Shown: one piece after another, positions 1,270 to 13,637 of the stretch
Numbering within the stretch: the first letter of the stretch is position 1
Layout: each line of letters opens with the position of its first letter
IMG/VR virus record: IMGVR_UViG_3300036826_000074
Location: 1 to 20,356 of that record
Reading direction: 5' to 3' (one strand)
Source: a virus
Length of the DNA: 20,356 bases
The notes under the pieces: model-generated
The model's input: only the letters and a program-made list of their open reading frames with translations
Databases searched by the model: none
Told to the model about the DNA's origin: nothing
Translations under genes and position numbers: made by a program

Positions 1270-1767
1270 ATGAAGATCCTGCTCGTTTCCGCGGCAGTAC
1301 TCGTCGCGGGCGGACTGCTCGCGACCACGCTCTCCGCCGACAACGAACCGATCGTCGTCACCGTCACGACGGCAGACTCCTATCAGGGCAAGAGCGCCGA
1401 CTGGTGGGCCGCTCATGCGGTCAAGGCTCGTCAGGACGCGAACGCTCGTGGGGCTCGGCTGCGACGACTGCAGACCGTCGTTCTTGGGCACCGGTCGAGT
1501 CCTGCGATTTCCGGGCCGCTGGCCCGCTCGCTGCTCTGCATCCACCGCTACGAGGGCAGCTGGTCTGACCCGAGCGCCCCCTTCTGGGGTGGGCTGCAGA
1601 TGGACATGGGCTTCCAGCGCGCCTACGGCGGCGAGTTCCTCCGCGCCTGGGGGACAGCCGACCACTGGCCCCCGTTCGTGCAGCTAGCGGTTGGGATGCG
1701 AGCCGTTCTGGCGGGCCGCGGCTTCGGGCCATGGCCGAACACGTCTCGCATGTGCGGCTTGCGCTAG
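1270..1767 (+). CDS. secreted lytic transglycosylase-like (Rpf-like) protein
   Basis: A 165-residue protein with an excellent ribosome-binding site (AAGGAGG at 1258-1264). Residues 1-23 form a hydrophobic leader (MKILLVSAAVLVAGGLLAT), either a signal peptide or an N-terminal anchor. A helical linker follows (to about residue 75), then a lysozyme-fold domain: C90-I-H-R-Y-E95-G-S-W, GGLQMDMGFQ (107-116), and GRGFGPWPNTSRMCGL (149-164). The invariant Glu after the first Cys is the expected catalytic acid of Rpf/transglycosylase domains, and C90 and C162 could form the usual disulfide. The cell-wall substrate would be the glycan strand of peptidoglycan. It may act in late lysis or as a virion-associated enzyme at entry; the leader favours export. 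The variant resembles those of Thermoleophilia, which hints at the host. It is separate from the CHAP endolysin at 11349. Confidence 0.75.
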   Translation: MKILLVSAAVLVAGGLLATTLSADNEPIVVTVTTADSYQGKSADWWAAHAVKARQDANARGARLRRLQTVVLGHRSSPAISGPLARSLLCIHRYEGSWSDPSAPFWGGLQMDMGFQRAYGGEFLRAWGTADHWPPFVQLAVGMRAVLAGRGFGPWPNTSRMCGLR

Positions 1768-10308: not shown

Positions 10309-10620
10309 ATGGCTTCCAGCAAGACCAGCAAGACCGAGGAGCCGAAGCAGACGCTCCCGTCCGGTCACCCGAAGGCCGGATACGTCAGCCCTGACCTCTC
10401 CTTCACCGACGGCGTCGGTGACGCGCCCGACGAGGAACTCGACTGGGCAGAGGAGCGCGACCAGGCGCGCGAGGACGAGGCGAAGGCCGTCGCCGAGGCC
10501 GAGGACAAGGTCGCGAAGGAGGAGGCGGCCGCACTCGAGAAGGCGGCGAAGGAGTCGCAGGACGCAGCCGCAGCGAGCACGTCGGACACGGCGACGACGT
10601 CGAGCAAGTCGTCCAGCTGA
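10309..10620 (+). CDS. charged low-complexity protein
   Basis: A 103-residue protein with a strong ribosome-binding site (AAAGGAGG, 10297-10304) and ATG 10309. An in-frame ATG at 10267 lies inside the previous gene and is rejected. After a polar N-terminus (SSKTSKTEEPKQ) and a short structured-looking segment (GHPKAGYVSPDLSF), most of the protein is a Glu/Ala/Lys-rich helix that could form a coiled coil (about residues 43-86), ending in a Ser/Thr/Asp tail. I know of no family. It is the last gene of this transcription block, followed at once by a strong terminator. It could be an assembly chaperone or head-fibre component; neither can be shown. Confidence 0.6.
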   Translation: MASSKTSKTEEPKQTLPSGHPKAGYVSPDLSFTDGVGDAPDEELDWAEERDQAREDEAKAVAEAEDKVAKEEAAALEKAAKESQDAAAASTSDTATTSSKSSS

Positions 10621-10679: not shown

Positions 10680-10832
10680 CTAGCGCTGGTCGAAGCACTC
10701 CAGGCAGAGCGCCCGCCCGCGGCGGCGCGAGCGGCAGTAGCGGAAGCGACCGCAGCCCGCGCACGTCCGCCAGCCCGCGTAGTCGCCCCAGCCGATCCAG
10801 CGGTTGCGGACGAGCCGTTCGAGAGCCGTCAT
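10680..10832 (-). CDS. small zinc-ribbon protein, reverse strand
   Basis: A 50-residue protein on the minus strand, starting at ATG 10832 in an ATGA overlap with the stop of the gene upstream on that strand and ending at TAG (10680-10682). It carries cysteines C24-A-G-C27, C33, C43-L-E-C46 in a basic, Arg/Trp-rich context (RNRWIGWGDYAGW, then RFRYCRSRRRGRALC). C24/C27 with C43/C46 make a plausible zinc ribbon; C33 is extra. Zinc plus high positive charge suggests nucleic-acid binding, so a small regulator or host-takeover protein is possible. I know of no exact family. The overlap with its partner and the clean zinc-site spacing are the reasons to accept so short a gene. Confidence 0.6.
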   Translation of the reverse strand: MTALERLVRNRWIGWGDYAGWRTCAGCGRFRYCRSRRRGRALCLECFDQR

Positions 10833-11197
10833 GCGTATCCCATTCCGTTCCAGCCGTGACGCTCCGCGCGTCTCGGGGAGTGTTCGTAGTAGTAGGTGAG
10901 CGCGCGCTGTTTCGCCTCGCGTCGCGTATCGCAGCGGTCGAGCTTCACACGCTCCCATCGCTTCGCCTTTCCGGAGCGTGAGCCCTGTCCCTTCGGCGCG
11001 TAGACGAAGACAGCGAACAGCCCGTCGAGCGTTCCCGCGCGGATCCGCTGCGTGGTGTAGGAGACGAGCCATCCGTCCTCTGTCCACCAGTCGCGGGTCG
11101 GCGCGAGCCCTTCCGGGCTGAATGCGCGTGCGAACTCTGCGTCCGTCATCGTGGACCCGAGTCGCCGCATGATCTCCTGCCCTATGTCTGTGCTCAT
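10829..11197 (-). CDS. hypothetical protein, first gene of the reverse-strand cassette
   Basis: A 122-residue protein on the minus strand. The start is ATG 11197, with a textbook ribosome-binding site AAAGGAGG three bases upstream (plus-strand 11201-11209 region). A longer in-frame start near 11491 is rejected because it runs through the control region and into the endolysin gene. The protein seems a small alpha/beta domain. A helical start (TDIGQEIMRRLGSTMTDAEF) is followed by the strands WLVSYTTQRI and GLFAVFVYAP, a basic linker KGQGSRSGKAKRWERVKLDR, and a helix TRREAKQRALTYYYEHSPRR. I do not recognise a family. It is followed by the zinc-ribbon gene at 10832. As the only well-supported leftward genes here, the pair are probably controlled apart from the late operon. 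Confidence 0.7.
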   Translation of the reverse strand: MSTDIGQEIMRRLGSTMTDAEFARAFSPEGLAPTRDWWTEDGWLVSYTTQRIRAGTLDGLFAVFVYAPKGQGSRSGKAKRWERVKLDRCDTRREAKQRALTYYYEHSPRRAERHGWNGMGYA

Positions 11198-11228
11198 TCG
11201 TCCTCCTTTGGACGGGTTGATTGAGCAC

Positions 11229-11257
11229 ATTCTAGCGATCGGGGTTTTCGCGATTCC
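11229..11257 (-). promoter_or_regulatory. candidate leftward promoter
   Basis: On the minus strand TAGAAT (11234 down to 11229) is a good -10 match, with a poor -35 (GGAATC, 11257 to 11252) 17 bases upstream. A start point near 11222 would leave a leader of about 25 bases before the ATG at 11197, which is sensible. The weak -35 suggests need for an activator or an overlap with the dyads just upstream. Not decisive. Confidence 0.32.
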
Positions 11258-11291
11258 TCGCAATCCCGCATGGATGCAGGGGTTTTCGTGA
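11241..11291. repeat. direct repeat GGGGTTTTCG(C/T)GA
   Basis: Two 13-base copies with one mismatch, at 11241-11253 and 11279-11291, start to start 38 bases apart (about 3.6 helical turns). The right copy overlaps the central part of the 27-base dyad. Their presence in the divergent control region suggests repeated binding sites, but no binding protein is known. Confidence 0.6.
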
Positions 11292-11302
11292 AAACTGCCT
11301 GC
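11276..11302. promoter_or_regulatory. 27-base palindrome, possible operator
   Basis: The arms GCAGG...CCTGC and GTTTTC...GAAAAC are nested around a GT centre, giving an imperfect dyad of 27 bases. It lies upstream of the candidate leftward promoter and ahead of the endolysin gene, so a dimeric regulator could affect both. It is followed by an A-run on the plus strand, so it is not a plus-strand terminator; on the minus strand the T-run precedes it rather than follows it. Confidence 0.5.
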
Positions 11303-11348
11303 AAAAAATTCGTGCTTGACACGGGTTCCCGTTCTCTGCGGAGGCGAC

Positions 11349-12890
11349 ATGAACTTCGAGGGCGCTGGCCTCTTCTCGACCTGGGGGATGATCTCCGGCG
11401 ACCTCCCGATCGAGGAGCTTGTCAGCCGCTCGAGCGCGGCCGGAGTTAGCTGGGTCGCCGCCCAGTTCGATGACGGCGACAACCTCGGCAACCTGCCCGA
11501 GTTACGGCAGCTGCTGCACGCTCACGCGATCTCGTTCGGCCTCTGGGACGCCGCCCCCGACCCGTACCGACTGCAGAGAGCCGTCGGCTTCGGGCCCGAC
11601 TTCTGGATCGCGCAGTCCGAAGGCAACCCGGTGGACTGGCGCAACCTCGTCGGCGGCATCCCACACACGATGCAGCGCGGCGTCGTCACGAACTTCTCCG
11701 GGCTCGATGACGCCTGTCTGACGAGCGCGGGCTTCTGCTGCCTGCCCGAGTGCTACCTGCCCGAGAACCCGAACGCGAGCCCGGAGGGGATGATCGAGGA
11801 GGCGAAGCGGCGCGGCTACAAGACGGTCGTCCCCTGCCTCGGCGTCTACTGGGACACCGCGCTCGCCGCCTACTCGTCACAGCCGGACTTCGCGATCTGG
11901 GCGGCCGAGACGATGACGGAGGCCGACTGGAACGAGCTTGGGCGGCGCTGCTCGAGCGGAGGAGGAGACGTGCCCGACAACGACGAGCCCGACTGGTGGG
12001 AGAAGGCGTACAAGGGCGGCCCGATGGTGAAGGTGAAGGGCTTCCCCCGCCCGCTCTACCCGCCCGACGCGAACAAGTACGGCAAGAAGCCCTCGGTCGA
12101 TGGACCCGACGTCGAGGCCTACAAGAGGACAGTGTCGAGAGCGGGCCGATGGCCCTGGCAGAGCTTCGATGACTCCTACTCGAACGGCTTCGCGCACGGG
12201 ACGAGCGGCAACGTCGGCGAGACGGGCGTCGCCGGGGTGCAGCGCCAGCAGGACATCGATGACACCGGTTGGCTGGGCGAGAAGACCTTCAACACGCTTC
12301 GCTCGATCCGCTGCCCGCAGGGGCCGCATGAGGGCGAGATGGCAATGGACGCCTACTCCGCCGATCTGATCAACAAGGCCTGGGAGCGCTTCGGCGGACA
12401 TGAGCCCGCGCCCGACGACGGCAAGACGCTGCGCAAGAAGGCGCTCGACAAGGCGATCTCACAGCTGGGCATCAAGGAATCGCCGCCCAACTCGAACCAG
12501 GTCAAGTACTGCACCTGGTACGGGCTGCTCGGCCCCTGGTGCGCGATGTTCGTGACCTGGTGCTTCGAGACGGCGGGCGACTCACCGAGCTTCCTACAGG
12601 GCGGGCGCTACAGCTACGTGCCCTACATCGTCGCCGACGCCCGCAACGGCAAGTACGGGCTGAAGACGACCGACGACCCCCAGCCCGGCGACCTCGTCGC
12701 CTACGACTGGGGCTTCGACGGCACCTACGACCACGTCGGCATCTTCGAGAAGTGGCTCAACTCGACACAGTGGAACGCGATCGAGGGAAACACCTCCACC
12801 TCGAACGACAGCAACGGCGGCGAGGTAATGCGGCGGACGCGAACCAAGGGAGCCCAGGCGACCGTCTTCGTTCGCGTCGCCGAGCCGTGA
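11349..12890 (+). CDS. modular endolysin: barrel-like domain, PG-binding-like domain, CHAP
   Basis: A 513-residue cell-wall hydrolase with three parts. Residues about 1-205 alternate strand and helix (SWVAAQFDD, ISFGLWDAAP, DFWIAQSEG, GVVTNFSG, CLPECYLPEN, TVVPCLGVYWD), resembling a TIM-barrel glycosidase-like fold that I cannot assign. Residues about 245-320 look like a peptidoglycan-binding module (EAYKRTVSRAGRWPW, then VQRQQDIDDTGWLGEKTFNT). Residues about 363-513 are a CHAP amidase/endopeptidase, with the probable active Cys398 in GPWCAMF, His462 in YDHVGIF, and E479/N481 in IEGNTS as third-residue candidates, plus the PGDLVAYDWG motif. The start is ATG 11349 behind GGAGG (11340-11344). 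No leader peptide is present, so release probably needs a holin. An in-frame TTG at 11316 lies in the control region and is rejected. Confidence 0.85.
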   Translation: MNFEGAGLFSTWGMISGDLPIEELVSRSSAAGVSWVAAQFDDGDNLGNLPELRQLLHAHAISFGLWDAAPDPYRLQRAVGFGPDFWIAQSEGNPVDWRNLVGGIPHTMQRGVVTNFSGLDDACLTSAGFCCLPECYLPENPNASPEGMIEEAKRRGYKTVVPCLGVYWDTALAAYSSQPDFAIWAAETMTEADWNELGRRCSSGGGDVPDNDEPDWWEKAYKGGPMVKVKGFPRPLYPPDANKYGKKPSVDGPDVEAYKRTVSRAGRWPWQSFDDSYSNGFAHGTSGNVGETGVAGVQRQQDIDDTGWLGEKTFNTLRSIRCPQGPHEGEMAMDAYSADLINKAWERFGGHEPAPDDGKTLRKKALDKAISQLGIKESPPNSNQVKYCTWYGLLGPWCAMFVTWCFETAGDSPSFLQGGRYSYVPYIVADARNGKYGLKTTDDPQPGDLVAYDWGFDGTYDHVGIFEKWLNSTQWNAIEGNTSTSNDSNGGEVMRRTRTKGAQATVFVRVAEP

Positions 12891-12891
12891 G

Positions 12892-13110
12892 TTGCTGCTC
12901 GCGCTGACCAGTGACGGGCTGCTCGCAATCGCGGCCCTGGTCACTGCGCTCGGCGGACTGATCGCCACGATCGCCGCGACACGTCGGGCGAGGAGCGAGG
13001 GCAAGGAAGAGGGCGACGCCGATTGTCATGAGCGTCTGCTGGCGGCCCGGCGTGAGGCCGAGGACCTCGCCGAGGAACTGCACCGGCTGAAGATGAGGGA
13101 GTTCGAGTGA
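12892..13110 (+). CDS. single-pass membrane protein, holin candidate
   Basis: A 72-residue protein whose probable TTG start is one base after the endolysin stop and whose end overlaps the collagen-like gene. One hydrophobic helix (DGLLAIAALVTALGGLIATI, residues about 8-27) is followed by basic residues TRRARSEGK and a charged coiled-coil-like tail (ERLLAARREAEDLAEELHRL). A short N-terminus, one helix and a charged cytoplasmic tail, next to an endolysin without a leader, fit a holin or a holin-regulating protein. A spanin-type role is an alternative, but spanins belong to Gram-negative hosts. No ribosome-binding site is visible, so it is likely translated by re-initiation after the endolysin. 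Confidence 0.6.
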   Translation: MLLALTSDGLLAIAALVTALGGLIATIAATRRARSEGKEEGDADCHERLLAARREAEDLAEELHRLKMREFE

Positions 13111-13637
13111 TCCCCTCCCGGCTGCTCGTCATCGCCGCCTGCGTCTTCTGGCTCGCCGCAGCCGCGCTTTGGGCCGTCTCCAACCGCGGAGCCTCGGGGT
13201 CAACGACGACGACGACGGTACGCGGCCCCGCAGGTCCGCCCGGCCCGCCCGGCCCGACAGGTAGTAGTGGCAGGCCGGGGCTCGCGGGTGCGATCGGGCC
13301 TCCGGGACATCGCGGCCAACGGGGCGAGCGCGGGTTGCGAGGCTTGCGCGGCGAGCGCGGCGAGCGCGGCGAGCATGGAGTCCGCGGCAAGCAAGGCGCG
13401 CGCGGCGAGCGCGGCCAGATCGGAGCGCAGGGTCTGCCCGGCGCAGAAGGCCCGACCGGTGCGACCGGCGCGCAGGGGGCACAGGGGCCGCAAGGCTCGC
13501 AGGGCTCGCAGGGGCCACCGGGCGCTCAGGGAGCACAGGGTCAGGCGGGCTTGACCTGTCCAGCGGGGTTCAAGGCGGAGGAGCTAGTGGTGCGAACACG
13601 CGGTGCCGACGCTCACGTTTTCGCGTGCGTGAAATGA
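13107..13637 (+). CDS. membrane-anchored collagen-like protein
   Basis: A 176-residue protein starting at GTG 13107 in a GTGA overlap. Residues 6-24 are a hydrophobic helix (LLVIAACVFWLAAAALWAV), then a Thr-rich spacer (STTTTTV). From residue 40 to 147 there are 36 uninterrupted Gly-X-Y triplets, with GPP-rich ends and an Arg/Glu-rich middle (repeated GER) suited to salt-bridged triple helices. The end (148-176) is a small domain with two cysteines (C151 and C174, in TCPAG and FACVK). Phage collagen repeats usually form tail-fibre shafts, but here an N-terminal membrane segment and the location between two small membrane proteins of the lysis region point to a trimeric rod fixed to the membrane or exported. 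The function is unknown; the repeat and topology are directly visible. Confidence 0.78.
   Translation: MIPSRLLVIAACVFWLAAAALWAVSNRGASGSTTTTTVRGPAGPPGPPGPTGSSGRPGLAGAIGPPGHRGQRGERGLRGLRGERGERGEHGVRGKQGARGERGQIGAQGLPGAEGPTGATGAQGAQGPQGSQGSQGPPGAQGAQGQAGLTCPAGFKAEELVVRTRGADAHVFACVK
13224..13547 (+). repeat. collagen Gly-X-Y coding repeat
   Basis: 108 codons in perfect three-residue register coding for 36 Gly-X-Y triplets. Short near-exact DNA repeats lie inside it, such as three tandem 9-base GGCGAGCGC units near 13350-13374 and CAGGGCTCG units near 13490-13515. These suggest growth by slippage. Confidence 0.75.

Follow-up and report, generated by a model that had tools for sequence, protein, structure and literature searches.

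A Leftward Gene Pair among the Late Genes of a Metagenomic Tailed Phage Appears to Be One Instance of a Promoter-Marked Locus with Exchangeable Cargo

Introduction

Morons, the accessory loci of prophages (Juhala et al. 2000), are described in PMC7067206. In acr-aca operons, the acr genes are followed by a regulator gene whose product represses the operon promoter, and the likeness of these loci to toxin-first toxin-antitoxin (TA) operons has been discussed (PMC9410906). In archaeal viruses, conserved regulatory sequences have been used to find anti-defense genes; there the motif is common to many genes of a genome, some activities have been demonstrated, and early expression was shown (PMC11065993). 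The SAS/ESAS sequences of Cluster K mycobacteriophages (PMC3203893) are found with many genes per genome, at the start codon, and with largely the same gene families. Small anti-host and anti-defense genes are hard to recognize because they have no common sequence, and a rare DNA motif can point to candidates.

Here, we describe a leftward two-gene unit in a 20,356-nucleotide stretch of viral DNA (the window) from a tailed phage known here from metagenomes only. We put the probability at roughly two in three that this is an accessory locus that has a promoter of its own and carries exchangeable, host-directed cargo.

Results

A Leftward Gene Pair between Late Genes

Two small genes, P122 and P50, overlap by an ATGA and are the only leftward genes called in the window, all others being rightward; they are flanked by the late gene g10309 and an endolysin carrying a CHAP domain (Table 1). 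Both open reading frames are present where the first-pass annotation had described a coupled leftward pair, as are the ribosome-binding site and the TAGAAT -10 hexamer that it had assigned to them.

Table 1. Positions of the gene pair, its presumed control sequences and neighboring genes in the window.
Feature	Position	Strand	Basis or comment
Lysozyme/Rpf-like gene, small and secreted-looking	1270-1767	+	adjoins terL
Late gene g10309	10309-10620	+	
GC-rich hairpin between g10309 and P50	10626-10658		probably a shared convergent terminator of both
P50	10680-10832	-	50 aa; zinc-binding protein, recurrent last gene of such units
ATGA overlap of P122 and P50	10829-10832	-	
P122	10829-11197	-	122 aa; putative variable cargo gene, first of unit
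Shine-Dalgarno AAAGGAGG of P122	11202-11209	-	sequence
Promoter core CGCTAGAATGTGCTCA	11222-11237	-	tops the window in the leave-window-out model
-10 TAGAAT within the core	11229-11234	-	
Conserved control region upstream of the -10, with GAAAAC and the CCCCTGCA block	11238-11330	-	alignment with other units
CTGCAAAAAATT...GCTTGACACGGG block	11294-11330		also in G028, near 34.8 kb
GTCGCCTCCGCAGAGAAC element	11331-11348	(- strand sequence)	close match to GTTGCC-N6-GARAAC of other units
Endolysin	11349-12890	+	CHAP domain
Collagen-triple-helix protein	13107-13637	+	Pfam Collagen, E = 6.5e-22

The first-pass annotation had made its cargo idea depend in part on purifying selection, and the codon comparisons bear it out. 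P122 and its only homologue (in G002) give a dN/dS of 0.31 (Fisher p = 1e-6), P50 compared with its relative in L032 gives p = 2.5e-7 for purifying selection, with synonymous sites near saturation, and one other cargo, compared between L047 and L106, gives a dN/dS of 0.21 (p = 4e-4). By this measure P122, P50 and that cargo are under purifying selection; in several other distant cargo pairs it was not significant.

The homologue of P122, 73% identical, lies in the leftward early region of G002 and stands without a P50. Searches of P122, P50 and the partner proteins encoded in related units against Pfam, PHROGs, NCBIfam and PADLOC gave no convincing match apart from DUF7694 for the L044 partner and a CENP-B_N helix-turn-helix (HTH) match, just above the cut-off, for the L045 partner. 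GenBank phages yielded no relative of P122 or P50, and searches for RNA families and tRNAs found none. The predicted model of P122 has a mean pLDDT of 68; WGR-like matches (Z 4.1-4.5) were set aside, since such scores fall within the noise and Pfam has no WGR match for the protein. Two cargo proteins of other genomes carry an HExxH-like motif, HEAMH in L033 (3968-4465, +) and HEANH in L011 (3734-4162, -), which suggests metalloprotease-type proteins; the L033 protein has no match in Pfam.

The window lysin has about 200 extra N-terminal residues, and this domain seems exchangeable because in most relatives the match starts only near residue 215. Just past the lysin, the late operon encodes a collagen-triple-helix protein. 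Small secreted-looking lysozyme/Rpf-like genes adjoin terL in the window and in L020, L025, L094 and L103, and in several relatives they converge on a cargo unit.

Empty and Filled Junctions

The comparison covered 27 loci, among them G001, a longer contig nearly identical to the window, and others with the MCP gene. The stretch at 10.66-11.35 kb, whose presence or absence the first-pass annotation had proposed to compare, does vary among them. In six relatives (L010, L012, L016, L019, L028 and L030), g10309 and the lysin are separated by only 62-95 bp, and in other relatives the two genes abut or the gap is indistinct. Where it is filled, the junction measures 728 bp (window) or 572 bp (L008), and the additional sequence separates the hairpin from the start of the lysin. 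The L033/L034 junction is also filled and the L106 unit stands beside the lysin, giving at least three filled junctions besides the window. A further phage, G028, has no detectable relative of this capsid gene and does have a related lysin, just upstream of which four leftward genes form a unit whose last gene encodes a relative of P50. The CTGCAAAAAATT...GCTTGACACGGG block is common to the window and G028, upstream of the lysin in both; in two phages with different capsid genes, it is a possible rightward lysin promoter.

The hairpin at the end of the pair folds with z = -3.0 on the cassette strand and -1.5 on the other, without a clear U-run. A hairpin, GC-rich in those of the six empty junctions that were folded, also occurs at this junction in cassette-free relatives (z from -3.8 to -5.4), so the hairpin is probably older than the cassette and merely shared by it. 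The convergent hairpin described as part of the cassette is real, but judged from these junctions the terminator probably belongs to the site and not to the cassette.

Units of the same type occupy three types of insertion site, next to the lysin, to terL, or to tail-fibre-like or g0782/g1021 genes. The first-pass annotation had raised the possibility that the zinc protein controls the neighboring lysis genes. The coincidence of the lysin ribosome-binding region with a GTCGCC-N6-GAGAAC element in the window (GTCGCCTCCGCAGAGAAC; the G010 copy is GTTGCCTCCGCAGAGAAC) could be taken to mean that P50, or leftward transcription, tunes the lysin or other late genes. We consider this very unlikely and the suggestion unsupported, because units of this type in other genomes adjoin terL, tail-fibre-like or g0782/g1021 genes and many relatives have no unit next to the lysin.

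Exchange of Cargo Genes

The cargo itself appears to be exchanged. L094 and L109 are 99.55% identical over their first aligned 5.56 kb, which end at the cargo start codon; the cargos are unrelated, and beyond them identity is again 94-99%. This suggests that cargo was exchanged next to a shared control region. Individual cargo proteins also recur in different company. The 70-aa protein of L047 is found beside the lysin with P50 in L008, beside the lysin with a third gene and P50 in L106, and beside terL with another gene in L102. The 107-aa protein of L035 is present in both L035 and L103, and an HTH-like protein occurs with P50 in L038 and L045 and without it in L099.

In the full-length records, the structural genes run one way, and the RecB-like exonuclease, integrase and excisionase-like proteins are encoded on the opposite strand, which is the cassette direction. 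Judging by the integrase-like proteins of G002, G005, G010 and G024, at least some of these phages are probably temperate. The unit could then be a lysogenic-conversion locus: instead of working at the onset of infection, it would be expressed from the prophage and protect the lysogen, for instance through superinfection exclusion. Its own promoter directed against the late genes would be typical of prophage accessory loci (PMC7067206). Our search of GTDB genomes for hosts, however, found no prophage, nor any relatives of P50 or of the MCP, and leftward is also the direction of the early lytic genes. We regard lysogenic conversion as possible though doubtful; it is compatible with an accessory locus carrying exchangeable cargo, and the two are not exclusive.

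The Promoter and Control Region

Upstream of the units lies a shared motif, GTTGCC-N6-GARAAC-N14-GGTAAAATGTGT, with a promoter core whose consensus in relatives is CGGTAAAATGTGTCTG and which stands about 40-50 nt before the start codon in MCP-bearing genomes. The window is an outlier in this alignment: its -10 is TAGAAT where most relatives have TAAAATGTG, and its GAAAAC is 9 bp from the -10, versus about 16 bp in other units, a 9-bp spacing found also in L039 and L011. Any functional -35 of the window promoter is uncertain.

The motif is rare elsewhere. TANAATGTG alone was found only before such units in the first 443 kb fetched, and with a 16-position model 11 distinct sites in the fetched DNA exceeded 12.5 bits, every one of them in front of a unit of this kind. 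A low score by itself carries no significance, because a similar amount of simulated DNA gives 16 sites at 12.5 bits, one at 17 and none at 20; nine of the real sites score above 22 bits. Because the model had been trained on these sites, we made two tests independent of them. First, a model trained on the other phages only was used to score both strands of the window (about 40,700 positions), and the -10 region of the unit ranked first with 11.5 bits, the next position scoring 7.6. Second, the pattern GARRNC-N14-GGTAAAATGTGT was scanned over all IMG/VR viral contigs. It had 17 matches, 10 of them in this phage group: four known loci and six new ones (L094, L099, L102, L103, L106 and L109), each a small-gene unit divergent from terL or the lysin. 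Within the group, the scan thus gave only units of this kind, including six not used in the definition. The other seven matches, six in AT-richer contigs plus L100, have no relation to the group and look like chance. Each of the full-length records read has no more than a single site scoring 15 bits or higher.

The region upstream of the promoter had been called dyad-rich. Conserved sequence blocks are present, but the region folds no better than shuffled sequences (z = -0.40), and GTTGCC-N6-GARAAC is an imperfect dyad only, present also in units without P50. L045, L007, L035 and L094 have another GTTGCC-N6-GnnnAC-like copy, about 100 bp away from the one at the promoter and overlapping the start of the adjacent late gene; with it goes the word ATTTTACAA, which in the genomes scanned occurs only at such units.

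These findings bear on whether a dedicated cargo module exists at all. By ordinary mosaicism, a fragment of the early region would have moved into the late operon by illegitimate recombination, and the placement of the P122 homologue and several P50 relatives in early operons fits such an origin. Against it, a specific promoter, rare elsewhere, precedes units with unrelated cargo at three types of site, and cargo is swapped from the start codon onward without loss of the promoter; we consider mosaicism alone improbable. Two further readings were rejected: a mobile endonuclease, because the unit encodes no nuclease, and a site for replication or packaging, because the place of the unit differs from genome to genome.

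The P50 Family

P50 has relatives in 17 loci, in which C24, C27, C43, C46 and D48 are invariant; several of these loci are in records without this MCP, that is, in phages with other capsids. It appears to be an undescribed family of zinc proteins. The AF2 model (pLDDT 91) has the order helix, knuckle, hairpin and short helix, a fold predicted to be treble-clef-like. Foldseek and VIA-align found nothing significant for this fold (best Z 2.5). Profile matches to the LIM protein PINCH, uS14 type Z and the anti-sigma factor Gin (E from 0.0006 to 0.6) look like generic zinc-knuckle similarity, and P50 has no match to an HTH family. The alignment of 17 rows was too diverse for collection scanning.

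Among the units, P50 is the commonest downstream gene and usually the last. Its partners are mostly unrelated to one another, with two shared families only, the HTH-like proteins of L038 and L045 and the YLLPSND proteins of L040 and L036. Four units (L011, L094, L102 and L109) have no P50, and in L099 its place is taken by another cysteine-rich protein. P50 also occurs in ordinary early operons that lack the unit promoter (G016 and G019), with further genes after it in G019.

Two small coupled genes, in the order of toxin-first TA operons, might be read as a toxin (P122) and its antitoxin (P50). Such a pairing is hard to reconcile with the many unrelated partners of P50, with the P122 homologue of G002 that has no P50, and with the existence of single-gene units, and we give a TA pair hardly any weight.

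P50 is probably a zinc protein that binds nucleic acid or a polymerase and works with many cargos. That it regulates its own unit is a guess, and on balance an unlikely one, because it is found in early operons without the promoter and is missing from some units.

Discussion

The first-pass annotation had read the pair as moron-like cargo. The presence and absence of the unit at the junction, purifying selection and a conserved promoter of its own all support that reading, and it now extends to other genomes: the pair seems to be one instance of a promoter-marked, exchangeable cargo slot, a modular locus and not an isolated oddity. We take the locus to be of moron type. Comparison shows a conserved control region that bears its own leftward promoter sequence; behind it stand one to four small genes, interchangeable between units and often with P50 as the last, and the whole is inserted between late genes. 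We are highly confident that this is an accessory cargo locus; that the cargo is host-directed or anti-defense is an even call.

We propose that host RNA polymerase would read the unit from the TAGAAT -10 soon after DNA entry, or in the prophage. Leftward transcription would run against the late direction and end at the hairpin shared with g10309, and P122 and P50 would be translated together. P122 would most likely act on the host, for instance against a defense system or a competing phage, and P50 would bind nucleic acid, most plausibly as a regulator of the unit. A more specific version, in which the control region marks an exchangeable anti-defense slot and P50 is a non-HTH, treble-clef zinc counterpart of the Aca regulators that tunes the slot, strikes us as rather improbable. 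If it is true, the promoter could be used as aca genes are, as bait for new anti-defense proteins in phages of uncultured bacteria. The candidates from the present loci include P122, the HEAMH protein of L033, the YLLPSND proteins, the HTH-like proteins and others.

Of the known systems, type II TA modules are fixed pairs, whereas here the partners change and single genes occur. With SAS/ESAS, the units share a conserved, partly dyad-like sequence before small phage genes; here there is one copy, in promoter position, before changing genes, and a genome has no more than a single site scoring 15 bits or higher, in place of many.

The likeness to morons is closer. Shared features are insertion between genes conserved in relatives (62-95 bp at empty junctions, 728 bp in the window, 572 bp in L008), orientation against the late genes, patchy occurrence among relatives and a promoter of their own, which here is recognized by sequence only, its core ranking first in the window under the independent model. 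In contrast to morons, one control region is kept while the cargo changes, a zinc-protein gene recurs, the terminator does not seem specific to the cassette, and independent expression is presumed.

Like acr-aca operons (PMC9410906, PMC6538845), the units combine small, unrelated first genes with a recurrent small gene after them and a conserved promoter region, P50 having many unrelated partners upstream. P50, however, is a treble-clef-like zinc protein with four to five cysteines and no HTH family match, not a helix-turn-helix protein, and some units do without it; we therefore describe the unit as built like an acr-aca operon and do not call it one. The core promoter of acr-aca operons also contains a conserved inverted repeat; its possible counterpart here, the imperfect dyad GTTGCC-N6-GARAAC, occurs in units with P50 and in units lacking it. 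As in the archaeal-virus loci (PMC11065993), a conserved promoter region marks small, unrelated, putatively early genes better than the genes themselves do. The units described here differ in belonging to bacterial tailed phages, in occurring as at most one high-scoring unit per genome and in being known from sequence alone.
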